Shown here: piece by piece, positions 1 through 63,857 of the stretch
Numbering within the stretch: the first letter of the stretch is position 1
Layout of the letters: each line of letters begins with the position of its first letter
Origin: Hexactinellida sp. DTS-2022
Lineage: Eukaryota; Porifera; Hexactinellida
Reading direction: 5' to 3'
DNA length: 64,000 nt
Assembly (NCBI GenBank): GCA_028753945.1
Contig: JAPNXP010000004.1
Span: 806,001-870,000 of the forward strand
Program-made: the position numbers and the translations under genes
Notes under the pieces: generated by a model
What the model was told of the DNA's origin: nothing
What the model saw: the letters and a program-made list of their open reading frames with translations, nothing else
Database searches by the model: none

Positions 1-190
1 AGGCAGACGTAGCTAATACTTGTTGAGTTCCAAGAAGACAGGCTAATACTTAGATTGATAGTATTAGAAGCTGTATAGAGATTTTCTCCTACAATCAGAC
101 TGATAGAAGCGTTGGGAATACTGTTAATAAAGCACTCTATTATTATTTGGGTATTGTCAACAGATGAGGAGGAATTCAATTGTATCGGAA
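1..190 (-). CDS. Ig-like exon of cassette 4 (partial, cut by the window edge)
   Basis: The acceptor AG lies at 191-192. The exon starts in phase 1 and reads VPIQLNSSSS, then the first Ig cysteine (ECFINSIP), then the second in SYVC just before the edge. It has the same length class and C...YxC layout as the three other Ig exons. Several N-x-S/T sites fit an extracellular domain. The donor is outside the window. Confidence 0.75.
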
Positions 191-3100
191 CTGAAAGAAT
201 AAAAGTATTTTATTAATTAATTAAATTACCAAAAATATATTATTACCATTTTGTAAATAAATTACATAGTATATGCTCAAAGATAAATTATATAGCACTA
301 AATAAATATTTATATTTAACAGAAATGTTAATATACTACTACACAAATAAGATTGTCGATCTACAGAGTAATGATTTATCTAGAAACTAACTTCCTGACT
401 AGATTATTATTTATACTGTACCTAGTATATTATGTAACATAGTATTCCTAATATCAGATGCCCCCCAGTTTCTTTAAAAAATTATGCTCACTTTAAAGGT
501 ATTTTGAGGTATTTTGATGCAGTGCGTGATTGCAATACTAGATACCACTGATTATATATTATTTATTTATGTATTTGAAATGTATACGTGTAATATAAGC
601 CAAATAAAATTATCATAAACAAATTAATGTCATTAACTTATTTTAAGAATTCCTCAAGCTATCTTCACTTAGCTTGAGGAAATTCAGACATTGAATGGAG
701 ACATGGAAGGATTCAAATATATAATTGATATTACTATTCATTCTTATTTGTGTATTTGACATAATGAATGAACTAGTACAACGGCCCTCCCGCTTTTTTT
801 GTCAACTTGACGCCCCTGATTGAAGTACCCCTGGAAATGGAAAACAAAACTACACATTATCATAGTATACGAACTAACCGAGTTTATCTTAACAAGACTA
901 TTTATAAAATTGGTTTTAAAAATAGTACTTACCGAAGTATGTGCTAAGCTAGGCACTTTATAACCGACTTTCTAGTCAAAAAAGTAAGAATTAAGATAAA
1001 ACAAACTTTAATACCCAATGTAAGTCTCACCATAGGTAGTAGGTACACATCTACAATATATTAAGAAAATCATCGGAATTTTTTTGGAAATTTCCAAGGC
1101 TTTCGTGGACAGATAAGGGAAAAGTAGAGGCAAACAATAATGGAAAATTAAAATGCTACCATTTCATGTATATATGTTATGTCGATTTTGTCAAACGTTC
1201 GACTTTGGCTATATTACTCGGATAAGCCTTAGTTTTATTGAATTTTGTTCAGAATTCGCTTCATCCAAGTATACCTAAGTGTACACTGTACACTGTAAGA
1301 AGAAATTTTTTACTATAATGAAAAAATATTCCAGGGTGATTTTGAAAATCAACGAATAAAATATGTCGATTTTATAAAGTCAACATTTTTTATTAGTTGA
1401 TTTTGTAAAATCGACATTTCTAATTAGTTGATTTTATAAAATCGACGTTCTGAAATGTCGATTTTATAAAATCAACAATTTTACAAATTTAAATTAAGTT
1501 TGTATGTTGATTTTACAAAATAGATATTTTGTATGTTGATTTTGTAAAATCGACTATTTGACAAAATCGACATAACATATATTCAAGAACAAATTGATAA
1601 ATAGTTGTGTATCGTAATTCAATTCAGTTCGTTGAAGAATCAAACCATCAATACAATAAGCATGTGTACGTAAATAAATATTTAAGAATATAACTGTACC
1701 ATAAGTTCCCCAGCTGAACATCAGTGTGTTGAATGACGTCACGACACTCTTCAGATTATAATTACCGTTTTGAAAGTAGTTCAAGTCAAATGCTAAACCC
1801 CCGGTTTGCCATGCTAGAGCTACATAGTCACGATGCTGTGAGGAAGATCTTATTGACAGCTGCATGGGAGAATATACATCAACATTTTGTTCTGATGTAA
1901 CCATGAACCCAATTTGGCTGTCAGATTCCAAAGTAGCGGCTTGTAATCTGACGGAAGAATCGAGTTTGTAGAAGTAAGAAGCATCAGTCACAGATGTTAG
2001 TATAATATTGTTATCTGCCAAAGACCGGAATATGCTGTCTGCAGTGAGAGAAGAGTTCACAACACTTCTGGGCTAAAATATAATTGTAGTACCAGTAATA
2101 AGCAATTTCCGTTAATGACAAAGTATTATTCATTAAAATCTAATTTAATGAAATCTTATGTGAGCAAAATGATAATCATAACTCTATAACTAAATAAATA
2201 TTATCAAAATAGTATTAATGGGTATCAATCATTGAAACTACATTAGTTATCCATAAATATATCTACTAAAATTGCATTTGTTTAAATTAAGGACATTTGT
2301 GTTGATCTGATATTCCTAACATTCTGCACTTGGATGGTCGTTTTTTTAAACATGGAAATCGGGTTAATAAATTGTAAAAGTTTAAATAGATAAATCGGCG
2401 GTAATATATAAGTAAGCCCTTACTTATACACCTATCAATATAAAAAGCTGCTTCGCAAGAGTAAAAATTTGATGTAAAAAATGACTTTACCAGTGCCTTA
2501 AAATAGAAAAGGTGCCTGTTGGCCGATATTTACTTTTTATATTAATTATCTATATTCATAACTTACCTCATCAGTAAATAAGATAACATGTTTTCGCACA
2601 TGTACGCTATCTCTAAATTCAAATTCATTTATAATTGAATCAATTGCACCATATGCTTCCTCTGTGCCCCCGCTCAAGCTAAATGAAATCAACTCGCTGT
2701 AGAGCTGACTGGCTGTACCGAATTTATCTGTGCCGTTGATGTTAAATATAGTAGCCGTTCTCTCGAAGGACACCAGACCATACCTGTGTAGTGTATGTAA
2801 TATGTATCAAATGAGTATACATAAATATCGAGTATTCACATTAAACCAGAAAATAAACAAATATTTGATAGCAGATCACTAAATTTAATATGTTCTAAAG
2901 TGCAAGCAGATAGAAATAAATTCAAAAATAATTCAAAAGTGTTAATATGAACATCAAAGTAATCTATATTATTAAATCTCGATTTGATAAGTATATAACT
3001 ATGACAAATATTAACTAACTATGTAATCAATTGTATAGTGAGGAGTAAGGCCGCGTAGCGGCCGTTAACTTGAGGTGCGTAGCACTGATATGACGCAAAG

Positions 3101-6100
3101 CGACCGAAACAGAAGGGCTCGTACTACAATAAAATCGTTTCCAACAATTGTCACTAAAGTAAATTTATATTCGAGATTCCAATTATATATTATGGACACT
3201 ATTTATGATAAATATAGTAGTATAATCCTGTATTTCCTTAATTCTCACCTATTAACACAACCATTTCCATTATCAGGTAGGTATTTAGCTACATTCTTAA
3301 CACCAGGTAAATAACTTCTGAATGATGGGGTTCTGTCCACTAGGAACACCATGTCCACACAGCTGGAGACTACTTGAGGAGTTATTTGAGTCCATTTAGA
3401 GTAGTACGTTGATGATGATGTGATATTACGATTATCAAAATTAAATGCGACATCTAAAACATAGACAAAATCAATATTGAGATAATTGCATATTCCCCAC
3501 CACTTTTTCCAATGTAATTTTCAGGCTCTAGCAAAGTAAATTTTAACTTCAAAAAATTCAACTTTCAATGCCGGGATTTGAAATTGAAAAGGTGTTGGCA
3601 GATCAATTTTGTATTGAAATGGAGTAATGTGTAATTAGCTTACCATTTATCTCACAAGGAGAATTATCTATCACAGCAAACTTGAACAGGTTAGCAATAA
3701 GTGTGGGAGAGTATGGAACGTTAAACTTGTAGAAATATTTCATATCGAATACAGCACCATTTGTATTAAATGCCAGACTGACATAGCTCTGATATGTGTT
3801 CGCGTCATATGTACTAAGGTAAGGGTTTGGTACAGCATTAACTTCTGTATTGGCTGATGAGAAATTCCCGAATCCAATATTAGAGAAGAAATTAATTCCA
3901 ATGAGTCTGTTAGAAGATTCGCCAGTGTAGTGGTATATGTAGCCAGAGTAGGTTACTACAGTCAACTTGATTCGATTTTGCAATAAAAGTGAGATTGTGT
4001 TCTCGTAAGTGTACTGTTGGGTTGTAGAGTCAGTTGAACGAGGCTAGAAATAGAGATTGTATGTTACAGAGAGTAGAATACTCAATTTGTAAGATTTGCC
4101 AATTTCAGGTTATAGACTTCTGTTGTGTACAAAATTATTAAAATTAATGGACTTATATTTGGCTATAAAAAAGACTTATTCCACCGAAGAAATTTTCCTA
4201 ATACTGAGTATGAAAGCAGAGATTGGAAATTTGTACAAGTATTTACTAGCAAACAACATTAATTTAGTTAAATTATTCTAAAAAAGTGTGTTATAAATAT
4301 TCATAAATTAGATAATAAACAAGGCCGGCGGAAGCGGTCAGGCCGGTCAGGCCATGGCCTGACCACTTTATAACTGCTTTCACGGTCCTGATAAATCAAA
4401 TTAAACTTTAATCTCTAACTACAGTACAACTTCGCTAGTACGAACACTGTTAATACGAAATTTCAGTTAATACGAACACTATTTCAGTCCAATACAAATG
4501 TTTCAATACAAATGAAAATTATTATAAGGCCAACGCATTTTAACGGCCCCGGGTGTTGATACTAATGAGGTTCTACAGTAGTATACATGACAAACTAACC
4601 TCATCTGCAAACAGCACTAGTCTCCTCTCTACTCCATCTCTGAATGAGAATGTACTGAGTGCCACGTGAATAGCAGGGTATCCGTCTTCCAGACCGCTAC
4701 CGAGGTTCTTAGAGTTAAAGATAACAGACTTGAGCTGAGCTGGAGTGCCATAGAGAGAATTAGTGGTGAGATTGAACACAGTAGCACCACCAGTCAAAGC
4801 AAAAAGCGTTAAGCCGTATCTATATAGCAGACAAAATAAAGCAATGAGATTATCGAATGTATATTAACTGACCTGTTTTCACAAGTACCGCTAACATTGG
4901 GAAGGTTTCCAGCTAACTCAGCTATTCTATCCAACTCATTATTAATAGATCCGCTTATGTCCAATAGGAATATCAGGTCTACACAATTTGTTAGTTCAAA
5001 TGAGTTACAGGATTCTCCGGCATCTGGTGTGAATGCGAACTGATTGAATGGAGAGGGTATTGGTTCTAAACACAGAATATTTATTGAATAACATTTAAAA
5101 TATTATAAAGGATGAAATAAATATTCAAATATGATAGAAGAATCCTAAAATTGTTTAGTTAAATGGTTCCCACATATAACAGTAGGGTTTGAATACTGAA
5201 TACCAAACTCATCAGACAAAAGATTAATTCTATGTGTTGAAAAAATTTACTCTACCAGTACATATAATTTATTAAGATAAAATCTATATGTTTGTGTGTT
5301 TTTGGTTTGTTTGTTTGTTTGTTTGTTTATTTGTTTGTCCGGATTGTATTCAAGTGATGGGGGAATAGAAACCGCATTTATAATTGAGATTACATTAAGC
5401 ACAATGCATTTTCACCTATGATAGTAAACAGATCTCTCTGTGTATCTCCTCCATTAGAATTGCTTGCAGAACATACATACTGGTAAGTGTCAGGCGTCAG
5501 ATCAGATAGAGCTAACACTTGTGTTATGGAGGTGGTGTCAGTAGCTACATAGCTAACTCCCTGTACCACAAGCGTGAGAGTAGCATGCGGTACACTGCTA
5601 ATCGTACAAGTGAACTCGTAGGGTCCAGGATTGCTGAGTGATCCTTGTGGCCTCACATTCATAGAGATTACCTTAATAGGATCTAAAGAATAGAAGCATG
5701 CATCAAATTCTTTTTTTATTTAGTAACTGGTAATAATGTTAGTAAAGTATTGAATACTCTAAGTAGAACAGATTAAACAAATATAATAATTGATCTAAAT
5801 CTTTTTTTAAATATTTGTGTTGGAATAAAGAACATTCAGCAGGCCGTGTCAAGAGAACCAATGTTCCCTTGGGTGGCTGGTATTTAAACAATAATACCAC
5901 TAGCCCACTAAGTTGTAACTTTAATACAAACAAAGAAAGAAAGAAAGAGAGTAAATAGTAAACGCTCACAATTCAATTAAAATACCATAAATCGAGTTAC
6001 TTTTAACAAAGTTGAGTTAAATAAAAATAATAATTAATGAAACAAGCCAAATTGTAAATTAAATATTATAACTGCGATCACAAGTAACAAATGTGGATAG

Positions 6101-60100: not shown

Positions 60101-63100
60101 ATCCATCGTCACATACAGATCCCCATCGACCAATGTGATATATCTCAAGTATTCCATCATCATTTCCAAAACCATACAAACGAAGAGTACCATCAACTAA
60201 TGAAGAAAAATCAGAATAAGTATAAATTCAAAGACAGCACTCCAAGAGTGGTAATATTACCATTTGTACAGTTGAGATAGAGACCCTCTGATGAATAGCA
60301 ATTGTCAACACCCCACCCGTCATTCCTACATTCGAGTAGTGATGATTCATTTCCACTACATATCACGTCATCAAGCCAAAAATTTGTTGTGATGCTATTT
60401 CCGTGTCTGTAGGAGACATAATTCGTGTATCCTAATTGCTTACAAGCAACAATACTTTCTATAGATCTCCACCCGTCGTCACACACAGAGCCCCATCGAC
60501 CATTGTGATATATCTCAAGTATTCCATCATCAGTGCCGCTTCCATACAGACGAAGTGTGCCATCTGATACTAAAAGGTGTATCTCTGAATATAATATACA
60601 GAATAGTTTACTAACTGAGGCTTTTTTAATAGAACAGTCTATATATAGTATTGTGTAGGAACAAACATTGAGGACTGAGTCAAATTTCCGTTGTTCAAAT
60701 TGTCACTATTACTACTCAACTATATGGAAATTATAGATTTAAAGGAGCGGACTCCGAAGCCTGTCAATAACTTTTTTCACTACCCAGGCCAGTTATCGAT
60801 AATCCACACTACATTAATATATCATCGATCTAGTAAGCTCTTACAATTCTATAATACTATTTAATGTAGATTTGGTTAATAGCAAGTCAAGATGTTTGGC
60901 TAAAAAATGGTAACAGGTATTTATTAGACCTCTTAAAGGCGATTCATAAGTTGAAAGTGAGACTTGTTTCATGAATGAATATCTCTTTTTATGTAGAAAT
61001 AAATTAAAAATAATGATATATTAATAATTCAATAGATTTACCTAATTTGCAGCTGAGATATATACCCTCTGATGAATAACAATTGTCAACACCCCATCCA
61101 TCATTAGTACAATCGACTAGCAACGATTCATCCCCATTGCAGATCACGTCATCAAGCCAAAAATCGTTGGTGATGCTGTTACCATGAATATAGGAGACAT
61201 AAGTGGAGAACCCCAATTGCTTACAAGCAACAATACTCTCTTCTGATCCCCATCCGTCGTCACACACAGAGCCCCATCGACCATTGTGATATATCTCAAG
61301 TATACCGTAATCAGTGCCGCTTCCATAGAGACGAAGAGCACCATCTAGTAAAAAAATATATCTCTGATTAAATAAATTTTCTATAATAAATCAATTAGGC
61401 TTTTATTGCAGATTTGAATAACTATATTTTCGATAGGTAGGTAAATTATTGTTAGGTTAGCTAACAGTTATATATAACTAGATACTCAAGACGAATACCA
61501 AGATGTATCCATAGACGTTGTAAACCACCCGAGCACCCGGATATATCCAGAATCCGGATAAACTCCGGGTAAATGTACACTTGAATAGAGTTGGGGTCGA
61601 ATTACGGCCCTCAAGCAGTTGGCACGGCCCTAGATTTCATTGACCGGTGTAGCAGCCCAGATTAACCCCAAACCAGTATAAAAACGGGTATAATCTGGCC
61701 TAGGACAGAATATACCCACGGGTATACTATGTACTAGCCTAGAACATACCGGGTATGAAGTGGGCTAGCTCAAAATATACCCCCTTAGCCCAGATTATAC
61801 CCCCAAGGGGGTATAATCTGGGCTAGGTAGGATAGAATATATCGCTCTCTGATTTTTCGGGACATTAAAAGTATAGTCCCGATTGAGTTGAAATTTTCAG
61901 TGCAGCTAGTACTTATTGTATACTGTCCAAAAATACTATAATCTCAATTTATAAATGTTCAGAGAGGTGCTTAATTTTTGAAAATGATTGCCGGAGGCCC
62001 TTTGAATTTGTCGCTATAAAAAAGTTTCCCCAAATCTTCGAGACCGGCATGGGAGCTTAAATCGCGAGATATACCCTAAATTATCAGAATCAGACATAAA
62101 ACTTAACTTGCCGAGGTTGGTCACGGAATCTTAGATTTTGACCCTACTATCATGGATGATTAGCAATTCCAATTTGGAATTAATTCCGGCCATAGTTGAG
62201 GTGTTAATTTACGTTCCAACTACTATGTAGTGGGACATTATTGAAACCAATGCTTTTAGTTTGGAAGATTGTGTTGTGCAGGTGCTAATTCATGGGAGTG
62301 GAAGGGGTGGCTAGCCACCCCCTTAGCTCTCCATCAATAATATCCGAGTAAAGAAAAAATGAAAATAAACAAAAATAACTCAGCTGAATCCCGACGTGAC
62401 CCAATTAAGCGGAGTCGACTGTTATAAATATATTACTCCGTTGACCAAATATATTCGGTTGACCAAATATATTCGTTTGCTAACCGAATACCAAATACTG
62501 GTATTCGGAATATAACCAAATATTGAACTATTTGGCGAATACATTTGGTCAAACCAATATTAAACTATTCGGGTGCAACCTTGGTTTTTAATGACGTATA
62601 TCGACTTTATTAACAACCAATATTTCTATAATTTAGAAAGGGTTTGAATTAAAGGGAATTATAATTATCGAGGGTTAAATACTTGAATACTTAACGATAC
62701 CAAATGAAACCAATGAGATATTGAACTTATAATTATACAAATATAGCTTAAAGGCAACTAATTTCTACACATTAACATATAAACTAGAAGCATAGTCTCA
62801 ATTACTCGTTAGTAGATCAATTTTTCCATTATATCAATTTACTAGACGAGAATAGATCTATAATAGTATCTTAAAAGGGAATAAGTAAATTGATGTTCAT
62901 CAATCATAATTTGTTCTATGAACGAATACTTTTTTAGCAGGGAATGAAAGGTTTACGAACGGACTGAATAAAGTTCAATAAACTCAATTCAGTTCATTTC
63001 AAATTAACGCACGTTCACCTCCTAACTTCAACACCAGTGGCGTTCGTTCAATTCGTTCAATTCGTTCGTTCAGTTCGTTCAGTTCGTTCAATTCGTTCGT

Positions 63101-63857
63101 TCAATTCGTTCGTTCAGTTCGTTCCTTCATTTCGTTCGTTCGTTCGTTCAGTTCGTTCGTTCGTTCGTTCAGTTCGTTCGTTCAGTTCGTTCGTTCAGTT
63201 CATTCAACTGCCGTTCAGGCAACCGTTGGCGTTCGTTCAGTTCGTTCAGCGTAAATGACATAAAACTCGTTCGTTCAGTTCGTTCAGCGTAAATGACATA
63301 AAACTCGTTCGTGAACCTTTAATTCCCTGATTTTTAGATATACAGTGGAAGCCGCTTAATCGGGACGCCTCGGGAGTAGCTATTTAGTCCCGTTTATCCG
63401 GTTCTCCCGATTAACCGATATACTTTATACTATTTGATACGAATTTGTTTCCAAAGCCTCGTCCCAATTAACCGAATTTCCCGATTAACCGTCTCCCGAT
63501 TAAGCGGCTTCCACTGTACTATGATCGGTTAGATTCGTTGCTATATAATACCTTTCGTGCAGCTGAGATAGAGACCCTCTGATGATCCACAATTGTCCAT
63601 TCCCCAGCCAAGATTAGTACAATCGACTAGAGATGATTCATGTCCACTACAACTCACATCATCAAGCCAAAAGTCGTTGGTGATGGTGTTACCATGTCTG
63701 TAAGAGACATAATTGGCGAAGCCCAACTGTCTACAGGCAACAAGACTTTCTTCTGTATTCCATCCGTCGTCACAGACAGAGCCCCATCGACCATTGTGAA
63801 ATATCTCAAGTATTCCGTCATCAGTTCCGCTTCCGTAGAGACGAAGAGTACCATCAG
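1..63857 (-). CDS. Giant SRCR / VWA / Ig-like modular gene, 34 exons seen, both ends outside the window
   Basis: Seen: 34 minus-strand exons with AG acceptors and GT donors, in the order SRCR x6, then (VWA-a, VWA-b, Ig) x4. Exon lengths fit one phase scheme throughout: SRCR and Ig lengths are multiples of 3, and every A, B and C exon is 1 modulo 3. All join in frame, giving about 3,090 residues. Known: these domains are extracellular adhesion and ligand-binding modules, and phase 1-1 modules are typical of exon shuffling. Inferred: a secreted or membrane-anchored adhesion or recognition protein. The signal peptide, promoter, any transmembrane segment and the stop codon lie outside the window. 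Introns run from 85 bp to about 16 kb and hold nearly all the transposons. The alternative, several tandem genes, is less likely because no exon shows an internal start or stop and every junction is phase-compatible. Confidence 0.8.
191..1170. other. AT-rich intron sequence without a gene
   Basis: Intron between the cassette-4 Ig exon and VWA-4b exon C. The only structure I see is a short hairpin, with arms at 647-660 and 671-685 built on GAATTCCTCAAGCT. No coding signal was found on either strand. Confidence 0.5.
1171..1581. mobile_element. MITE-like element made of GTCGATTTTGTAAAATCGAC-type palindromes
   Basis: It begins TATATGTTATGTCGATTTTG and ends with the inverted form near 1581. The interior is a run of roughly 20-bp imperfect palindromes (TTGATTTTGTAAAATCGAC). 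The same family recurs at 8571-9843. It is a non-autonomous element of unknown superfamily, and the target duplication could not be fixed because both flanks are TA-rich. Confidence 0.6.
1700..2072 (-). CDS. VWA-4b exon C (C-terminal third of VWA domain)
   Basis: The acceptor is at 2073-2074 and the donor GTACAG follows 1700. It starts PRSVVNSS and has the conserved strand ILTSVTDA. The family motif YVALAWQTGGLAFDL follows, and it ends SWGTYG with the last codon split (phase 1), as in other type-b C exons. It has no cysteine pair, unlike the type-a C exons. Confidence 0.85.
2567..2783 (-). CDS. VWA-4b exon B (middle of VWA domain)
   Basis: Phase 2 in, phase 0 out, donor GTAAGT. It starts YGLVSFERT and has FGTASQL, then the loop GGTEEAYGAI that would supply the second MIDAS residue. 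It ends in strand HVILFTDE, whose Asp is the third MIDAS position. All the metal-site landmarks are present. Confidence 0.85.
3042..3124. repeat. Short GC-palindrome repeat (copy 1)
   Basis: This roughly 85-bp block, with the palindrome GGCCGCGTAGCGGCC and the motif GAGGTGCGTAGCAC, recurs inverted at 16066-16146. It stands out from the AT-rich intron by base composition. It is probably the end of a dispersed element of unknown class. Confidence 0.5.
3249..3453 (-). CDS. VWA-4b exon A (N-terminal third of VWA domain)
   Basis: Acceptor at 3454-3455, donor GTGAGA before 3249, phases 1 and 2. It has a linker of about 35 residues, then SSCVDMVFLVDRTPSFRSYL. The metal motif reads DRTPS (D-x-T-x-S) and is plausibly functional. 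It ends GNGCVN plus a split Arg codon completed by exon B. The two flanking cysteines occur in all type-b A exons. Confidence 0.85.
3644..4043 (-). CDS. VWA-4a exon C
   Basis: Starts PRSTDSTTQQYTYENT (phase 0). It has LTVVTYSG, then RLIGINFFSNIGFGNFS, then YVSLAFNTNGAVFDM, and ends SPCEING with a split Gly codon. The ending (xxCxxNG) marks it as type a, which is followed directly by the next VWA rather than by Ig. Confidence 0.85.
4422..4555. mobile_element. Fragment of a pogo/Tc1-like MITE
   Basis: CAGTACAACTTCGCTAGTAC followed by repeated TTAATACGAA/AGTACGAA units resembles the termini of the elements at 6592 and 7110. Only one end is clear. Confidence 0.4.
4600..4819 (-). CDS. VWA-4a exon B
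   Basis: Starts YGLTLFALTGG, contains YGTPAQL and GSGLEDGYPAI, and ends RRLVLFADE before donor GTTAGT. The terminal ADE keeps the metal-site Asp. This is the only type-a B exon of the four to do so. Confidence 0.85.
4873..5065 (-). CDS. VWA-4a exon A, intact MIDAS
   Basis: Starts EPIPSPFNQF and has CNSFELTNCVDLIFLLDISGS. DISGS is a perfect DxSxS metal site, the best in the window. It ends GTCEN plus a split Arg codon. With exon B (ADE) this is the only type-a domain predicted to bind metal. Confidence 0.88.
5290..5390. repeat. TTTG-run repeat block (copy 1)
   Basis: A (TTTG)n tract is followed by about 50 bp beginning CCGGATTGTATT and ending CATTTATAATTGAGAT. The block is nearly identical to 9866-9952, so it is a dispersed repeat. 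Its class is unknown. It ends about 25 bp from the Ig exon donor. Confidence 0.55.
5416..5682 (-). CDS. Ig-like exon of cassette 3
   Basis: Phase 1-1, 267 bp. It starts DPIKVISMNV, with the first cysteine in YEFTCTISSVP and the second in TYQYVCSASNSNGG, ending FTIIG. The D-x-YxCxAxN pattern is the classic Ig F-strand signature. Donor GTGAAA. Confidence 0.88.
6110..6479 (-). CDS. VWA-3b exon C
   Basis: Starts PRTIVETRYTKSS, has NGIILSVITNAGNFY, then DYVDIAWKTGGVAFNI, and ends IYIWGDPG with a split Gly codon (donor GTGAGT). It is type b and is followed by the Ig exon 5416-5682. Confidence 0.87.
6592..6713. mobile_element. pogo/Tc1-like MITE
   Basis: Inverted termini: CAGTTGAACCTCGTTAGTAC at the left, and a right end that inverts to CAGTAGAAGCTCGTTGGTAC. 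A TA dinucleotide precedes the left end, but a TA was not seen after the right end. Short and non-autonomous. Confidence 0.65.
6759..6867 (-). CDS. VWA-3b exon B, shortened
   Basis: Acceptor at 6868-6869, donor GTTTGT. At 109 bp it is half the usual 214-241 bp yet keeps the phases (2 in, 0 out). It reads YSGYFYTDVYYGIQYII and ends YIVVVTEQ. The GTPxQL segment and the metal-site Asp (TDE becomes TEQ) are missing. It was found by searching the A-C gap, so it is less certain than the other exons. Confidence 0.7.
7110..7262. mobile_element. pogo/Tc1-like MITE, diverged
   Basis: The inverted ends CTTCGTTCATACGAAC and GTTCGTACGAACGAAG enclose TTCGTATTAACCGG-type motifs shared with 6592-6713. The terminal bases are eroded. 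It lies in the VWA-3b A-B intron. Confidence 0.5.
7329..7524 (-). CDS. VWA-3b exon A, MIDAS lost
   Basis: Starts VDYAFTSRTQFP and has TSCVDMVFLLDNSLPYSTY. DNSLP lacks the second Ser of DxSxS. It ends GCSH plus two bases that form Tyr with exon B (donor GTGAGT). Together with the shortened exon B, this VWA is unlikely to bind metal. Confidence 0.82.
7893..8300. repeat. Partial copy of the foldback P-related element arm
   Basis: It starts at CTAGCGCGCTTCGCAGC and the palindrome CACACCAACCGCTTCGCGAT. It then matches the arm sequence of 57140-57500 through ATGACGTCATAACTTG to TGCCAAAAATCAGATTTGG. The outer terminus is missing. Confidence 0.65.
8335..8529. mobile_element. pogo-like MITE
   Basis: CAGTCAGGTTCTATTATTC at the left and a right end inverting to CAGTCAGGTCTGCTTATTA, with internal TTCATAATAAGC motifs. 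A TA precedes the left end, but the right flank is TT. Confidence 0.6.
8571..9843. mobile_element. TCGATTTTGT-palindrome elements forming a large inverted structure
   Basis: It opens TATATGTTACGTCGAATTTG and closes GACATAACATATA at 9843, with many TTGATTTTGTAAAATCGAC units inside. Arms at about 8981-9165 and 9490-9662 are inverted copies that include GGCCCGAGCGTTTCAAAT. The centre is interrupted by a separate MITE (9258-9430) lying between two element ends. It may be two abutting elements or one large foldback. Confidence 0.6.
9258..9430. mobile_element. TA-inserting MITE, AAGCGGCAC family (copy 1)
   Basis: CAAGTAAACCTCCCAAAGCG at the left and GTGCCGCTTTTG at the right, with an internal duplication of GAGAATGATTTTGTGCCGCT. 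A second copy with better termini lies at 50325-50508. It sits in TA repeats. Confidence 0.7.
9866..9952. repeat. TTTG-run repeat block (copy 2)
   Basis: It matches 5290-5390 from the TTTG run through CCGCATTTATAATTGAGAT. It abuts the MULE-like element. Confidence 0.55.
9974..10766. mobile_element. MULE-like element with 9-bp target duplication
   Basis: The 9-bp direct repeat CCAAATGTT flanks it (9965-9973 and 10767-10775). The inverted ends 9981-10025 and 10716-10760 carry GGAACTTTCGTCGCCGGAAT followed by repeats of GGAATTTTCGTCGCC. Both ends have exactly 7 bp outside the conserved motif. A 9-bp duplication is typical of Mutator-like elements. At 793 bp it is internally deleted and keeps only a transposase tail. 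Confidence 0.88.
10248..10547 (-). pseudogene. C-terminal remnant of a MULE transposase
   Basis: About 99 codons reading HTRGLNHSARTNNSVEGWHN followed by AFQSGISISHPSFPKLVNYL and ending near HNFTF. RTNNSVEGWHN is the well-known C-terminal motif of MULE transposases. The catalytic DDE region is absent. It lies inside the element with 9-bp duplications, which agrees with its class. Confidence 0.85.
10780..11022. repeat. Two direct copies of a ~100-bp AT-rich repeat
   Basis: Copies at 10780-10883 and 10921-11022 share AGGTAAACAA, ATGAATATTTGTTGTT and TTTACACAAATAGGTAAACA. An inverted relative occurs at about 16193-16290. Confidence 0.65.
11040..11450. repeat. Partial foldback-arm copy, interrupted by a hAT MITE
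   Basis: It matches the arm sequence at 55616-55850 (CATTAATGATGCGGACAC through CACCAACCG and CCGCGAAGCGACCTAG). It is split at 11230-11395 by a small hAT element. Confidence 0.65.
11230..11395. mobile_element. Small hAT-type MITE, TSD GGTGTGTG
   Basis: 8-bp duplications GGTGTGTG at 11222-11229 and 11396-11403. The ends are CAGGGGCG and CACCACTG, and the interior is rich in CCCGGGGCA motifs. Removing it restores the continuous foldback-arm repeat. Confidence 0.85.
11627..11935. mobile_element. hAT-type MITE (CAGGGGTTCTCAACC), TSD ATCTAGAC
   Basis: 8-bp duplications ATCTAGAC at 11619-11626 and 11936-11943. The left end is CAGGGGTTCTCAACC and the right end inverts to CAGGAGTTCTTAACC. This terminus is typical of hAT non-autonomous elements. 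309 bp, no coding. Confidence 0.92.
12182..12587 (-). CDS. VWA-3a exon C
   Basis: Starts AREIAPSFSNLTF, has NGVTLNTVSSSNKFYYF, RLIGMHYNTRTGVGNFS and YVELAWKSNGVAFDL, and ends LPCTLDG with a split Gly codon (donor GTGAGT). It carries the type-a cysteine pair (YCPNLI and LPC). Confidence 0.88.
13002..13242 (-). CDS. VWA-3a exon B
   Basis: Starts YGLTLYGTSS, contains FSSPSDLSTAI and GSKDGYEAI, and ends RKILIISNE before donor GTAAAC. The third metal-site Asp is replaced by Asn (SNE). Confidence 0.87.
13775..13979 (-). CDS. VWA-3a exon A, MIDAS altered
   Basis: Linker TPRIYPQYSQFTYIP, then CNSIALQETHCMDLVLLIDISAYTDT. DISAY keeps D and the first S but lacks the last Ser of DxSxS. It ends STCSN plus a split Arg codon. 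Confidence 0.85.
14152..14424 (-). CDS. Ig-like exon of cassette 2
   Basis: Phase 1-1, 273 bp. It starts APVLVSAINS, with the first cysteine in YSFSCIATSVS, then IFIDGSWYSNEGS, then the second cysteine in YNFICVANSSIGGD. Donor GTTAGT. It is closest to the cassette-1 Ig, sharing IDGxWYSN and CVANSS. Confidence 0.88.
14701..15109 (-). CDS. VWA-2b exon C
   Basis: Starts PRSIVSSSTTKLS, has AGVILSVLSLANRFYY and YVELAWETGGIAFDL, and ends ITSTYG with a split codon (donor GTAAGA). Type b. Confidence 0.88.
15491..15707 (-). CDS. VWA-2b exon B
   Basis: Starts YGLTLFEDYSEII, contains FGTPSQL and ILGGTEDGLLAI, and ends HIILVTDE before donor GTATTA. GGT and TDE supply plausible second and third metal-site residues. 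Confidence 0.88.
16066..16146. repeat. Short GC-palindrome repeat (copy 2, inverted)
   Basis: Reverse-strand match to 3042-3124 with GGCCGCAGAGCGGCC and GAGGTGCGTAGCACC. It lies next to the satellite unit. Confidence 0.5.
16150..17300. repeat. Diverged single unit of the hairpin satellite
   Basis: It matches units of the 23.5-39.2 kb array: CATCATCACCTCAAGGT, GCGCACTCGATAACCCC, GTCTCATGGGTTACAGATGTG on the minus strand, and AACACTCTGTTCTGTGG. It ends with two copies of the palindromic motif (about 17187-17225 and 17264-17298). It lies in the VWA-2b A-B intron. Confidence 0.75.
17937..18132 (-). CDS. VWA-2b exon A
   Basis: Starts ANTFTYESISTIG, then SNCVDMVFLIDRTSSLNSYL. DRTSS (D-x-T-x-S) is a plausible metal site. 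It ends SCIN plus a split Arg codon, donor GTAGGT. With exon B (TDE) it forms an apparently competent VWA. Confidence 0.87.
18133..18727. other. Intron sequence without recognisable features
   Basis: AT-rich. I found no gene, hairpin or terminal repeat here. Confidence 0.4.
18728..21090 (+). pseudogene. Decayed hAT transposase (TTF-type zinc finger / DUF4371 kind)
   Basis: Order seen: GLYGFNNWKIA with HEESLAH (TTF-type zinc-finger style, 18790-18905), then frames broken by stops. Next come ADFVICLQLFRKVLTLT (from about 19865) and FISKLDRRF (about 20185). Last is YQIATGENDRSFS with MKLVKTYLEAKW (20995-21075), matching the hAT C-terminal ERSFS dimerisation motif. The stops, frameshifts and two insertions (about 19205-19425 and 20382-20935) mean it is dead. 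It is opposite in strand to the host gene and lies in its intron. Confidence 0.75.
20382..20935. mobile_element. GGTCCGG-rich MITE, truncated copy inside the hAT pseudogene
   Basis: It starts TGTCACGAAAAGATTGGTCC, as does 39825-40487, and shares the internal segment from CTCCCACTAGTGCGAAATTG to TTGGAATGGCTGCCAAAAC. The right terminus is missing. It splits the transposase reading. Confidence 0.75.
21568..21967 (-). CDS. VWA-2a exon C
   Basis: Starts PRQTSAFTEQYNYENT, has IALSIVSYG, RLLGIIYNNRIGFG and YYELAWSTNGAAFDF, and ends ATCEFNG with a split codon (donor GTTAGT). Type-a cysteine pair (YCPMLL and ATC). Confidence 0.88.
22216..22447 (-). CDS. VWA-2a exon B
   Basis: Starts FGLTLFGLSTG, contains FGTAQQL and GVEDAYLGI, and ends RRMLLVTKE before donor GTAAAA. 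Lys replaces the third metal-site Asp. Confidence 0.87.
22448..23141. other. Intron, nothing recognised
   Basis: Intron between VWA-2a exons A and B. AT-rich, with a short (TA)n run near 22673. No gene or repeat family was recognised. Confidence 0.4.
23142..23337 (-). CDS. VWA-2a exon A, MIDAS lost
   Basis: Starts EIPTYPFEQFTPGF, then CGNFHYTNCVDLVLVISLTQRL. The first metal-site Asp is replaced (VISLTQ), so DxSxS is gone. It ends YNCVN plus two bases, donor GTAAGT. Confidence 0.85.
25750..26171. mobile_element. hAT-type MITE packed with GACCCAT repeats, TSD CACTATAC
   Basis: 8-bp duplications CACTATAC at 25742-25749 and 26172-26179. The ends are CAGAGTGGACCATGGGTC and, inverted, CAGAGTGGCCCATGGGTC. 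Both halves are runs of GACCCAT / ATGGGTC. The insertion split one copy of the palindromic motif, and removing it restores that motif. Confidence 0.92.
28900..29930. repeat. AT-rich spacer with two short tandem duplications
   Basis: A ~196-bp direct repeat (about 29126-29320 and 29322-29514) shares GGATTAAGTTTATATTTCCA and a poly-C run. A further ~110-bp repeat (about 29578-29770) shares ATAGTA(G/A)(C/T)AGCTATTGAAT. It interrupts the satellite array. No coding. Confidence 0.55.
38540..39220. repeat. Cluster of about 11 copies of a ~60-bp palindromic motif
   Basis: Core GGGCCACTATACTATAGTAT followed by AGTCGGCACAGTAATAAT, with spacer CCAAAGCACTAAGACCAAT or AAGGCAGTAAGATTAGAA. One copy (about 38990) is a perfect palindrome bounded by CTGTGCCGAC and GTCGGCACAG. 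Single copies or small groups lie near 12089, 17187-17298, 25483-25690, 26170-26320, 30206-30305, 37022 and 50022-50112, nearly always beside AAT repeats. Confidence 0.85.
39290..39553 (-). CDS. Ig-like exon of cassette 1
   Basis: Phase 1-1, 264 bp. It starts EPVKIITTDVLTN, with the first cysteine in YQFSCAAASPS, then LLIDGEWYSNHNS, then the second cysteine in YYFLCVANSSMGSD, ending YYIIG. Donor GTAAGT. Confidence 0.9.
39825..40487. mobile_element. GGTCCGG-rich MITE next to a splice donor
   Basis: Terminal TGTCACGAAAA and inverted CGTGACA, flanked by GGAA on both sides (39821-39824 and 40488-40491). Both halves are dense in GGTCCGG / CCGGACC. The superfamily is uncertain because the target duplication may be 4-5 bp. 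It ends 11 bp from the donor of VWA-1b exon C. Confidence 0.75.
40499..40904 (-). CDS. VWA-1b exon C
   Basis: Starts PRTILDSTITNST, has ASIILSAATIADDFY, LIGFGNN and YVDVAWQTGGVAFDL, and ends FSISFNYG with a split codon (donor GTGAGT). Type b, followed by the cassette-1 Ig exon. Confidence 0.88.
41045..41350. mobile_element. hAT-type MITE packed with GACCCGG repeats, TSD ATATACAC
   Basis: 8-bp duplications ATATACAC at 41037-41044 and 41351-41358. The ends are CAGGCTTGGACCGGG and an inverted match. GACCCGG is repeated on both sides of an AT-rich centre. It lies in the VWA-1b B-C intron. Confidence 0.92.
41556..41769 (-). CDS. VWA-1b exon B
   Basis: Starts YGLSIFEDSATRI, contains WGTPSEL and GYNEEGLVAI, and ends HIVLFTDE before donor GTAAAT. 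It keeps the third metal-site Asp. Its upstream intron holds the 9.4-kb P element. Confidence 0.88.
41960..43007. mobile_element. Element nested in the left arm of the P element
   Basis: Inverted ends of about 195 bp (41960-42154 and 42811-43007) start CATTGTATGACTGAAAATGT and include CCCCGCCCCAA. Comparison with the uninterrupted right arm (51185-51200) gives the insertion point. The bases just outside are inverted rather than direct (CTGAA against TTCAG). The interior is non-coding as far as I can tell. Confidence 0.8.
43437..45994 (-). pseudogene. THAP-domain P-element transposase, broken by a frameshift
   Basis: The start at 45994 opens MPHKCSVVQC. A THAP zinc finger follows (Cys5, Cys10, Cys53, His56 in C-x4-C-x42-C-x2-H, with FPSNTDLRQRW between and NPIPTI after). 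The frame runs about 427 codons. Coding then continues in another frame for about 445 codons to 43437, with YDTVHLVKNIRNNLLGRRFF, PLERRFSQYR and AYISGYITRSLLKQSKCQNC, all typical of P transposase / THAP9-like proteins. The shift falls near 44775-44830, in the catalytic part, so the copy is probably inactive. A tiny intron is a less likely alternative. Confidence 0.88.
46400..50115. repeat. Hairpin satellite units inside the P element
   Basis: Hairpins start near 46406, 47267 and 48795, with the same unit blocks as 23.5-38.5 kb. It ends with two palindromic motifs (about 50022 and 50075). It lies upstream of the transposase start, within the P terminal repeats. I saw no target duplication at its edges. 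Confidence 0.85.
50325..50508. mobile_element. TA-inserting MITE, AAGCGGCAC family (copy 2)
   Basis: Ends CAGGTAAACCTCCCAAAGCG and its inverse, flanked by TA (50323-50324 and 50509-50510), with an internal repeat of CTCCGAGAAGCGGCACAAAA. It is Tc1/mariner-like by target choice and nested in the P element. Confidence 0.85.
51404..51599 (-). CDS. VWA-1b exon A
   Basis: Starts DVVYSFSELVSFP, then SSCVDMVFLVDKTGSMGSYY. DKTGS is a plausible D-x-T-G-S metal site. It ends NSCQN plus a split Arg codon, donor GTAAAT. The preceding intron is only 85 bp, while the following one is about 9.6 kb because of the P element. Confidence 0.9.
51685..52078 (-). CDS. VWA-1a exon C
   Basis: Starts LPAATKEFTYEEI, has NDVILSVVTNADTY, RIIGMSGSNRLGYGNYS and YVELAWLSGGASYDL, and ends TPCSFNG with a split codon (donor GTAAGA). 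Type-a cysteine pair (FCANLI and TPC). Confidence 0.88.
52374..52599 (-). CDS. VWA-1a exon B
   Basis: Starts YGLTVFGSSIG, contains FGTPSQL and SADGYKAI, and ends KKILFITNQ before donor GTATGT. Asn replaces the third metal-site Asp (TNQ). Confidence 0.87.
53151..53355 (-). CDS. VWA-1a exon A, MIDAS lost
   Basis: Starts VLEFPISPFLQF, then CNSYELSNCIDLIFVIDVNLLTS. DVNLL is not DxSxS. It ends LNCTN plus a split Arg codon. This is the first VWA exon after the SRCR block. Confidence 0.87.
53356..54351. other. Intron between the SRCR block and the first VWA
   Basis: Mostly non-repetitive AT-rich sequence. A short CAGTGGCGTATCCAGAAGG stretch near 54117 looks like one end of a hAT-type element, but no partner end was found. 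Confidence 0.4.
54352..54660 (-). CDS. SRCR domain 6 (single exon)
   Basis: Phase 1-1. It starts VPDGTLRLYGSGTDDG, has RWGTVCDDGWG, VACKQLGF, FWLDDVICNGDE and LVDC, and ends LYLNCTYG (donor GTAATA). Six cysteines, as in group-A SRCR. It is the last SRCR before the VWA cassettes. Confidence 0.93.
55003..55548. mobile_element. hAT-type MITE packed with GACTCG/GAGTCA repeats, TSD CTGAAAAG
   Basis: 8-bp duplications CTGAAAAG at 54995-55002 and 55549-55556. The ends are CAGGGCTTTTCA and, inverted, CAGGACTTTTCA. The interior is tandem GACTCGGTGACTCGAGTCAC. The intact opposite arm (57355-57375) shows the empty site. Confidence 0.95.
55908..56255. mobile_element. hAT-type MITE, TSD GGCAGAAC
   Basis: 8-bp duplications GGCAGAAC at 55900-55907 and 56256-56263. 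The ends are CAGTGGCGGCGCGAG and, inverted, CAGAGGTGGCGCCACGC. GGGGCAAG motifs lie inside. Nested near the centre of the foldback element. Confidence 0.92.
56296..57135. mobile_element. Inverted-repeat element, TGTTGTATGACGG ends
   Basis: The left end TGTTGTATGACGGTTTACT inverts at 57117-57135. A likely 4-bp duplication GGTC (56292-56295 and 57136-57139) fits the uninterrupted sequence in related copies. A second pair of inverted arms lies at about 56807-56875 and 56960-57029. Superfamily not determined. Confidence 0.75.
56406..56798. mobile_element. GTGACCC-rich insertion nested in the TGTTGTATG element
   Basis: Flanked by CTTATG on both sides (56400-56405 and 56799-56804). The ends CATGGCTCCCAAG and (inverted) CATACCTCCAAAG match imperfectly. 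It carries several GACCC(A/G)C motifs. It interrupts an inverted-repeat arm that is intact on the other side (57025-57040). hAT-like by appearance only. Confidence 0.6.
57778..58255. mobile_element. hAT-type MITE packed with GGTCCAGA/GGACCGG repeats, TSD AATTGTAT
   Basis: 8-bp duplications AATTGTAT at 57770-57777 and 58256-58263. The ends CAGAGATGCAGCGGTC are inverted at the right. The interior has repeated CGGTCCAGACCGATGAAA and GGACCGGACC. Confidence 0.94.
58737..59042 (-). CDS. SRCR domain 5 (single exon)
   Basis: Phase 1-1, 306 bp. VDGALRLYGSG, RWGTVCDDGWG, VACKQLGF, FWLDDVICIGNE, LLDCRNDGWG, LYLNCSTG, donor GTATAT. Six cysteines. Nearly the same as domains 3 and 6. Confidence 0.93.
59265..59603. 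mobile_element. hAT-type MITE (CAGTGGCGTAG), TSD TACCGAAG
   Basis: 8-bp duplications TACCGAAG at 59257-59264 and 59604-59611. The ends are CAGTGGCGTAGGGAGG and, inverted, CAGGGGCGTAGCTAGGG, with GGGGTCCTGGGGG / GGACCCCCCC inside. It lies in the SRCR4-SRCR5 intron. Confidence 0.93.
59891..60196 (-). CDS. SRCR domain 4 (single exon)
   Basis: Phase 1-1. VDGTLRLYGFGNDDG, RWGSVCDDGWG, VACKQLGF, FWLDDVICNGDE, LVDCRNDGWG, LYLNCTAG, donor GTAATA. It is the most divergent of the six around the fifth cysteine (NCGYYEG). Confidence 0.93.
60261..60569 (-). CDS. SRCR domain 3 (single exon)
   Basis: Phase 1-1. VSDGTLRLYGSG, RWGSVCDDGWRS, VACKQLGY, FWLDDVICSGNE, LLECRNDGWG, LYLNCTNG, donor GTAATA. Only 64 bp of intron separate it from domain 4, the tightest pair in the SRCR block. 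Confidence 0.93.
60570..61041. other. Intron, nothing recognised
   Basis: AT-rich intron between SRCR domains 2 and 3. No terminal repeats or coding signal seen. Confidence 0.4.
61042..61344 (-). CDS. SRCR domain 2 (single exon)
   Basis: Phase 1-1, 303 bp. DGALRLYGSGTDYG, RWGSVCDDGWG, VACKQLGF, FWLDDVICNGDE, LVDCTNDGWG, IYLSCKLG, donor GTAAAT. Its acceptor is 3 bp nearer the core than in most of the others. Confidence 0.92.
61648..61826. repeat. Inverted-repeat block with GGGTATA motifs
   Basis: TAGCAGCCCAGATTAACCCC at the left is nearly inverted by the GTATAATCTGGGCTA end at the right, with several GGGTATA/TATACCC copies between. A target duplication could not be fixed. Probably another small element. 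Confidence 0.5.
62383..62580. repeat. Element remnants: pogo-like end and ACCGAATA/ACCAAATA repeats
   Basis: About 62383-62415 reads, inverted, CAGTCGACTCCGCTTAATTG, like a pogo terminus. It is followed by repeated TTGACCAAATATATTCG units and an inverted CCGAATACCAAATA (62430-62580). No complete element was defined. Confidence 0.45.
62938..63329. mobile_element. hAT-type MITE packed with TTCGTTCAG repeats
   Basis: The ends CAGGGAATGAAAGGTT and, inverted, CAGGGAATTAAAGGTT are flanked by TTTTTTAG (62930-62937) and ATTTTTAG (63330-63337), 7 of 8 matching. The interior is a long run of TTCGTTCAGTTCG units built on the subterminal CGAACG motif. Confidence 0.85.
63343..63516. mobile_element. pogo/Tc1-like MITE with TA duplication
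   Basis: The ends CAGTGGAAGCCGCTTAATCG are perfectly inverted at the right, with TA on both sides (63341-63342 and 63517-63518). Multiple CCCGATTAACCG motifs inside. 174 bp. Confidence 0.92.
63552..63857 (-). CDS. SRCR domain 1 seen (single exon); gene continues upstream
   Basis: Phase 1-1. ADGTLRLYGSGTDDG, RWGSVCDDGWNT, VACRQLGF, FWLDDVSCSGHE, LVDCTNLGWG, LYLSCTKG, donor GTATTA. Six cysteines. The acceptor AG lies at 63858-63859 and phase 1 demands a preceding exon, so the gene's 5' part is beyond the window. Confidence 0.92.

Follow-up and report, generated by a model that had tools for sequence, protein, structure and literature searches.

The window analysed here is a 64,000-nucleotide stretch of contig C13 (C13:806001-870000), part of a searched genome of 112.4 Mb in 18 contigs that, judging by its gene content, is probably a sponge's. 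Profile searches placed 34 exons in it, all on the minus strand: six SRCR exons and 28 cassette exons, the latter forming four cassettes of seven exons each in the order VWA-a A, B, C, then VWA-b A, B, C, then Ig. They are listed below in window coordinates, with their phases and the evidence for each.

63552..63857, minus strand, SRCR exon 14 of 19, first in the window; phase 1-1; profile, splice model
61042..61344, minus strand, SRCR exon 15; phase 1-1; profile, splice model
60261..60584, minus strand, SRCR exon 16; phase 1-1, alternative acceptor 60563 scores nearly equal; profile, splice model
59891..60196, minus strand, SRCR exon 17; phase 1-1; profile, splice model
58737..59042, minus strand, SRCR exon 18; phase 1-1; Pfam SRCR 85.9 bits, profile, splice model
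54352..54654, minus strand, SRCR exon 19, the last; phase 1-1; profile, splice model
53151..53355, minus strand, cassette 1 VWA-a exon A; phase 1-2, alternative acceptor 53349 possible; profile, splice model
52374..52599, minus strand, cassette 1 VWA-a exon B; phase 2-0; profile, splice model
51685..52078, minus strand, cassette 1 VWA-a exon C; phase 0-1; profile, splice model
51404..51599, minus strand, cassette 1 VWA-b exon A; phase 1-2, MIDAS-like DKTGS; splice model
41556..41769, minus strand, cassette 1 VWA-b exon B; phase 2-0, donor picked for agreement with the other cassettes, a different donor outscoring it; profile, splice model
40499..40904, minus strand, cassette 1 VWA-b exon C; phase 0-1; profile, splice model
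39290..39553, minus strand, cassette 1 Ig-like exon; phase 1-1; profile, splice model, PDB profile search
23142..23337, minus strand, cassette 2 VWA-a exon A; phase 1-2; profile, splice model
22216..22447, minus strand, cassette 2 VWA-a exon B; phase 2-0; profile, splice model
21568..21967, minus strand, cassette 2 VWA-a exon C; phase 0-1; profile, splice model
17937..18132, minus strand, cassette 2 VWA-b exon A; phase 1-2, MIDAS-like DRTSS; splice model
15491..15707, minus strand, cassette 2 VWA-b exon B; phase 2-0; profile, splice model
14701..15109, minus strand, cassette 2 VWA-b exon C; phase 0-1; profile, splice model, Pfam VWA 25.4 bits for the joined domain
14152..14424, minus strand, cassette 2 Ig-like exon; phase 1-1; profile, splice model
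13775..13979, minus strand, cassette 3 VWA-a exon A; phase 1-2; profile, splice model
13002..13242, minus strand, cassette 3 VWA-a exon B; phase 2-0; profile, splice model
12182..12587, minus strand, cassette 3 VWA-a exon C; phase 0-1; profile, splice model
7329..7524, minus strand, cassette 3 VWA-b exon A; phase 1-2, degenerate MIDAS DNSLP; splice model
6759..6867, minus strand, cassette 3 VWA-b exon B, short 109-bp form; phase 2-0; profile, equal length in locus 2
6110..6479, minus strand, cassette 3 VWA-b exon C; phase 0-1; profile, splice model
5416..5682, minus strand, cassette 3 Ig-like exon; phase 1-1; profile, splice model, with Pfam ig at 17.5 bits falling short of the 21.8 cut-off
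4873..5065, minus strand, cassette 4 VWA-a exon A; phase 1-2, MIDAS DISGS; profile, splice model
4600..4819, minus strand, cassette 4 VWA-a exon B; phase 2-0; profile, splice model
3644..4043, minus strand, cassette 4 VWA-a exon C; phase 0-1; profile, splice model, Pfam VWA 24.8 bits for the joined domain
3249..3453, minus strand, cassette 4 VWA-b exon A; phase 1-2, MIDAS-like DRTPS; splice model
2567..2783, minus strand, cassette 4 VWA-b exon B; phase 2-0; profile, splice model
1700..2072, minus strand, cassette 4 VWA-b exon C; phase 0-1; profile, splice model, Pfam VWA 25.2 bits for the joined domain
1..190, minus strand, cassette 4 Ig-like exon, truncated at the window edge (complete exon C13:805948-806190); phase 1-1; profile, splice model

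The exons were recovered from stop-to-stop ORFs with eight profiles built from the window's own exons, and since 33 of the 34 were in the training set, the recovery of those is by construction. The exon outside the training set, exon B of cassette 3 VWA-b, was matched at E 0.001 by the window profiles, and all 28 cassette exons were matched again, in the same order, in a second locus on the same contig (locus 2, see below) that had been unused for training. In the six frames of the window, 56 profile-ORF matches were obtained, a count in which related profiles may share an ORF. Every one of them lay on the minus strand; the reversed sequence yielded none and ten block shuffles one in total. 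The profiles, the recovery in locus 2 and the Pfam matches given below thus bear out the preliminary description, which had placed 34 exons on one strand and in one order. The middle exon of cassette 3 VWA-b measures 109 bp, versus 214-217 in the other cassettes, and is equally short in locus 2; this short exon explains the seeming lack of a middle exon, for which a broken VWA-b had been considered. A weak plus-strand profile match outside the window (C13:930994, E 0.022) was disregarded, and Rfam and tRNA scans of the window gave no match.

The domain identities proposed in the preliminary description received differing degrees of support from Pfam. SRCR reached 85.9 bits against a cut-off of 26.1 in the one exon scanned, and the family profile counted 19 SRCR in the whole locus (locus 1). 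As for VWA (PF00092), three of the eight joined domains scored above the cut-off, one fell at 23.7 against 23.8 and four were without match; the Pfam match emerges only once exons A, B and C are joined. A profile of nine VWA domains (the eight and one from contig C3) had as its sole PDB match at E <= 0.01 the sporozoite surface protein 2 (3e-4), a VWA protein. One of the four cassette Ig domains gave a Pfam ig match, below cut-off, while the cassette Ig profile had 28 PDB matches at E up to 5 (best 3.7e-4), all of them presumably proteins with Ig domains. When ten single ORFs were scanned, Pfam returned only SRCR families, P-element/THAP families and one Peptidase_C92 match (E 0.081), the last of which was taken as chance.

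By manual reading, which covered the MIDAS-like DxS/TxS motif and a later Asp, both were present in four VWA domains of locus 1 (DKTGS in 1b, DRTSS in 2b, DISGS in 4a and DRTPS in 4b), and both were altered in 1a, 2a, 3a and 3b. From this, we infer four putative metal-binding and four putative structural VWA copies in locus 1. The split was less clean in locus 2, where the later Asp was present in 1a and 3b though the first motif was not intact or not found, and where some entries were missed by the search pattern. The joined VWA domains are only 28-45% identical to the first aligned one, and so the VWA duplications are old. In the tree, VWA-a and VWA-b formed separate groups and each cassette of locus 1 paired with its counterpart in locus 2 (several inner nodes were weakly supported), indicating that the cassette had multiplied as a unit before loci 1 and 2 split.

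Transposable and repetitive sequences were also observed between the exons. At 43440-45997 (minus strand), in the long intron of cassette 1 VWA-b, lie two overlapping THAP/P-element-like transposon ORFs, the upstream one matching Pfam THAP (41.6 bits) and a TNP-like RNase H (45.4 bits) and the other without match; because the frame changes between the two, this element is probably degenerate. An interspersed repeat occurs in many copies from about 24000 to 50000, on both strands; translated in six frames, it shows strings similar to KIQNCSCADACSFGGTIFWWW. Repeats of this type sit in the largest introns and are present around locus 2, too.

All 34 window exons follow one phase scheme, i.e. 1-2 for A, 2-0 for B, 0-1 for C and 1-1 for Ig and SRCR. 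As splice sites had been chosen under this scheme, a phase-blind control was essential; it covered the whole 59-exon model described below and took the best-scoring site within 45 nt (for donors), agreement by chance being about one third. The phase-blind donors agreed in phase with the model in 57 of 58 cases (at the identical site in 56) and the acceptors in 48 of 58 (at the identical site in 47), so that a single phase scheme, as stated in the preliminary description, was borne out with the control in place.

The window holds the middle part of a predicted gene that spans about 125 kb of the minus strand, from C13:920019 to 795226. Its model comprises 59 exons with 17,466 nt of coding sequence in a single open frame (5,821 aa, one terminal stop), and AG and GT are found at all 58 acceptors and all 58 donors, respectively. 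Outside the window, a signal exon and 13 SRCR exons are located upstream and 11 exons downstream. The signal-peptide exon (C13:919950-920019, minus strand) reads MLGKEIVFLLILVIFNQKYHCYT and ends in phase 1; the prediction of a signal peptide is a sequence reading, based on a hydrophobic first exon conserved in three loci. The downstream exons, on the same strand at C13:795-806 kb, encode five FN3 domains, an Ig, a GAIN-like region, a GPS-like motif with TM1-3, then TM4-7 and a tail (FN3 to 7TM exons at C13:799108-805485). The encoded order is therefore signal peptide, 19 SRCR, four times VWA-a, VWA-b and Ig, five FN3, Ig, GAIN/GPS-like region, 7TM and tail, and the SRCR, VWA, Ig and FN3 modules are all bounded by phase-1 edges in the exon model. 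Ahead of the GPS-like motif, there is a long multi-domain ectodomain of 5,379 residues with 74 N-glycosylation sequons.

When the Ig, GAIN and 7TM exons were joined, Pfam 7tm_2 was matched with 45.6 bits (cut-off 20.6), and the best PDB relatives of the GAIN-7TM part were ADGRD1 (2.1e-13), ADGRL2 and ADGRL3, secretin-type CRF receptors being weaker. An exon-by-exon genome search with PF00002 contained neither locus 1 nor locus 2 and only one exon of the third locus (27.2 bits). FN3 scored above the Pfam cut-off in all four of the five FN3 exons that were scanned, and the Ig that follows them fell just below the Pfam cut-offs (Ig_3 28.8 against 30). The 7tm_2 match and the adhesion GPCRs as best solved relatives identify the predicted product of the window gene as an adhesion GPCR. 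The opinion of the preliminary description that no named family has this architecture was thus wrong at the family level, the telling 3' end being located outside the window. Its suggestion of adhesion, matrix or recognition functions fits as regards adhesion and recognition; with the 7TM found, however, the product is predicted to be a signalling membrane receptor and more than a matrix or adhesion protein.

Three features led to the call of a GAIN-like region, namely its position, an HxT motif and a PDB alignment that continues across it into the 7TM; the Pfam GPS model had no match in the joined Ig-GAIN-7TM stretch, and a profile of the GAIN region gave only two chance-level matches against solved structures. 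The GPS-like motif (H-x-T) reads NHFTSFLVF in loci 1 and 3 and NHLTSFLVF in locus 2 and was aligned with the GPS stretch of ADGRD1 in the PDB alignment. A GPS normally has cysteines, and as these usual cysteines are absent from the motif, cleavage at NHF|T is uncertain. The stretch after NHF|T resembles the consensus of a tethered agonist. In the tail, there are two NPIY, one YEEI and two NPF motifs, identical in loci 1 and 2; motifs of these kinds bind PTB, SH2 and EH domains, respectively.

Next, the paralogues on C13 were compared. The signal exon was found at three places in the genome, C13:919950-920019 (minus strand), 1162937-1163006 (minus strand) and 1180632-1180701 (plus strand), each time upstream of one ectodomain and ending in phase 1; compared with the locus 1 copy, identity is 87% for locus 2 and 94% for locus 3. 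The three loci have nearly the same 3' half and different sets of modules, with SRCR and VWA in locus 1, VWA only in locus 2 and SRCR only in locus 3. In locus 2, the signal exon leads directly to the same four VWA cassettes (C13:1091.8-1160.4 kb), after which comes the 3' end as in locus 1; neither the genome search (150 of 197 candidates scored) nor the profiles, run on C13:1080001-1170000, detected SRCR on the locus 2 strand. In locus 3, the signal exon precedes 19 SRCR matches and then exons for FN3 (of which two were found), Ig, GAIN-like region and 7TM; no VWA match came up there when the genome was searched with VWA exons, the stretch C13:1182001-1296300 being covered by genome searches only. 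The comparison leaves out C13:1170001-1172000 and 1182001-1296300 as well as the locus 3 tail. Within the locus 3 array, at C13:1250367-1291140 (plus strand), twelve SRCR matches form six pairs of equal scores at a spacing of about 7.66 kb, which looks like a very recent tandem expansion.

Interspersed repeats aside, homology between loci 1 and 2 ends at C13:859739, between SRCR 19 and the first VWA exon, and the homology of locus 1 with locus 3 breaks off at C13:805677, inside the intron that separates the last cassette Ig from the first FN3. Both breaks sit in phase-1 introns, and, as far as can be read from the sequences, this shows gain or loss of modules at phase-1 introns among the C13 paralogues. 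The expectation that cassettes could come and go without breaking the frame holds for whole blocks, since the complete SRCR array and the complete VWA block differ between paralogues; loss of a single cassette was unseen, and both VWA loci have four cassettes. The module sets of the three paralogues also support SRCR and VWA belonging to one predicted gene, and their comparison favours the proposal of one giant gene. SRCR being absent from locus 2, transcripts free of SRCR might also be made from locus 1.

Between loci 1 and 2, dS was 0.10, dN 0.04 and omega 0.39 over 3,596 codons (Nei-Gojobori estimates without significance test); the totals exclude the SRCR exons as well as FN3 and FN5 exons, for which no locus 2 partner was found, and FN4 was compared out of frame, which inflates the FN and overall totals. 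Omega was 0.34 over 2,116 codons of the VWA exons (the locus 2 cassette-1 VWA-b exon B being cut at another donor, with 61 codons compared) and 0.22-0.37 in the TM exons, the 7TM and the tail being open and conserved. Values near or above 1 were obtained for short exons, namely cassette 1 A (1.46), cassette 4 VWA-b B (1.37), FN1 (0.92) and Ig/GAIN (0.90). At C13:1088431-1090299 (minus strand), the FN2 exon of locus 2 is interrupted by one in-frame stop and the FN4 exon is longer by 4 nt, so the locus may be in decay, or these symmetric exons may be skipped; the other locus 2 exons that were compared are open, the terminal stop aside.

Taken together, the 34 exons would form the central part of a single minus-strand gene (C13:795226-920019) for a giant adhesion GPCR, a reading to which we assign a probability of roughly 0.85 from the sequences at hand. 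Alternatively, the secreted ectodomain might be the main product, released by alternative 3' ends or by GPS cleavage as a matrix or shed adhesion protein, with signalling a minor function. The large ectodomain with its many sequons would suit such a protein, and symmetric 1-1 modules permit many isoforms, but the 7TM and tail have stayed open and conserved at the omega values given above, and the 3' half has been retained in all three loci (the locus 3 tail lying outside the comparison), which makes this alternative unlikely.

We consider it very unlikely that two genes are present, the first encoding a secreted SRCR-array protein that ends near window position 54300 and the second a separate VWA adhesion GPCR. 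Such an arrangement would agree with the VWA block of locus 2 having its own signal exon and no SRCR, and with the end of the locus 1-2 homology, interspersed repeats aside, between the last SRCR and the first VWA exon. However, a single signal exon was found in locus 1, ahead of the first SRCR, with none beside the VWA block; the acceptor of the first VWA exon is in phase 1 and fits the SRCR donors, and locus 3 carries an SRCR array on the same type of receptor. This single signal exon was the reason to discard a VWA gene driven by a promoter of its own, and inspection of the 1-kb gap between SRCR and VWA by eye revealed no unrelated first exon. Finally, it is highly improbable that loci 1, 2 and 3 are badly merged haplotypes and the SRCR-plus-VWA gene not real as drawn. 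High heterozygosity is common in sponges, the three loci all fall within some 0.5 Mb and their signal exons are similar, but the copies are unlike in orientation and in the modules they contain, dS between loci 1 and 2 is near 0.1, and the intact 59-exon frame of locus 1 would be hard to obtain through misjoining.

Returning to a single giant adhesion GPCR, its action can be modelled as follows. Ligand on microbes, neighbouring cells or matrix would be bound by the SRCR domains and by the four VWA domains with a retained metal motif; pull or binding would expose the tethered stretch after NHF|T, and the 7TM would then signal. The tail motifs could recruit endocytic or tyrosine-kinase adaptors, which may lead to uptake of the bound particle or to a firmer contact. 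At the level of the gene, unequal recombination in phase-1 introns would swap the sensor and keep the engine. More tentatively, the whole C13 cluster could be a sensor-swapping system, in which the signal exon and 7TM are constant and recombination installs SRCR arrays, VWA-VWA-Ig arrays or both; individuals or species could then differ in recognition, be it for discrimination of self from non-self or of symbiont from prey, with uptake driven by NPxY, YEEI and NPF. We regard this extension as conceivable though doubtful. In any case, the three C13 loci represent a natural exon-shuffling experiment, with modules present or absent at phase-1 introns and both ends retained, and the diversification of sponge recognition receptors becomes testable through RNA sequencing and comparison of individuals.

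A further, single-VWA adhesion GPCR was found at C3:20809-24250 (plus strand). It has the motif DRTAS and matches 7tm_2 with 117.8 bits; its VWA (18.5 bits) and a weak HRM-like match are both below the Pfam cut-offs. Its VWA groups with VWA-b in the tree, and its 7TM is only 28% identical to that of the C13 family. This indicates either shuffling of VWA onto two 7TM backgrounds or an old VWA-7TM pairing. VWA is best known from integrins and matrix proteins; with these genes, it would join the ectodomain toolkit of adhesion GPCRs in what is probably an early animal lineage, on two 7TM backgrounds within one genome (C13 and C3). SRCR and 7tm_2 matches also cluster at C15:3.80-3.93 Mb and C6:4.67-4.71 Mb, possibly representing further SRCR adhesion GPCRs.

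Among known systems, receptors of the latrophilin/ADGRD1 type are the best solved relatives of the GPS-7TM part and share the order of ectodomain, GPS-like site, 7TM and tail; their ectodomain modules are not known to be related to those of the window gene, in which the GPS cysteines typical of these receptors are missing. Hemicentins are large extracellular proteins with a VWA followed by a long Ig array, and thus unite VWA and Ig in one large protein, as does the window gene. Hemicentins are not known to have a 7TM or a tandemly repeated VWA, whereas the window gene differs by eight VWA domains and by a 7TM, i.e. a transmembrane receptor domain that places it outside the hemicentins. ADGRV1 is of the same size class and built on the same principle of a long repeat ectodomain and a 7TM; its repeats are Calx-beta, and neither SRCR nor VWA is known from it. 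This receptor (also VLGR1) is described as the largest member of the adhesion GPCR family (PMC13101372).

As for the literature on sponges, a word search found neither VWA nor SRCR in the main text of a 2025 survey including several sponge proteomes (PMC12716839) or in the first 300,000 of 412,533 characters of a 2026 review (PMC13197933). Among the papers listed, no VWA-bearing adhesion GPCR was described in titles and abstract openings; as a sign of novelty, this silence is weak evidence. A large SRCR expansion has been documented in Amphimedon (PMC10855680), and an SRCR gene and an adhesion GPCR were reported among sponge genes responding to microbial molecules (PMC6208332). SRCR repeats have already been described in the sponge adhesion GPCRs Aq712029 and Aq715659 of Amphimedon queenslandica (Krishnan et al. 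2014, PMC4302439), which have an adhesion-family 7TM and multiple SRCR in common with the window gene; fn3 and Ig also appear in the domain list of a figure legend of that paper, and locus 3 looks like a receptor of this kind. VWA is absent from the list in this legend, which covers a selection of receptors, whereas the window gene has eight. By description only, the window gene is set apart from the Amphimedon receptors by its four VWA-VWA-Ig cassettes between SRCR and FN3. SRCR adhesion GPCRs are hence already known, and what is added here is VWA beside SRCR in a predicted giant receptor with sister genes that share its ends and differ in their sensors.
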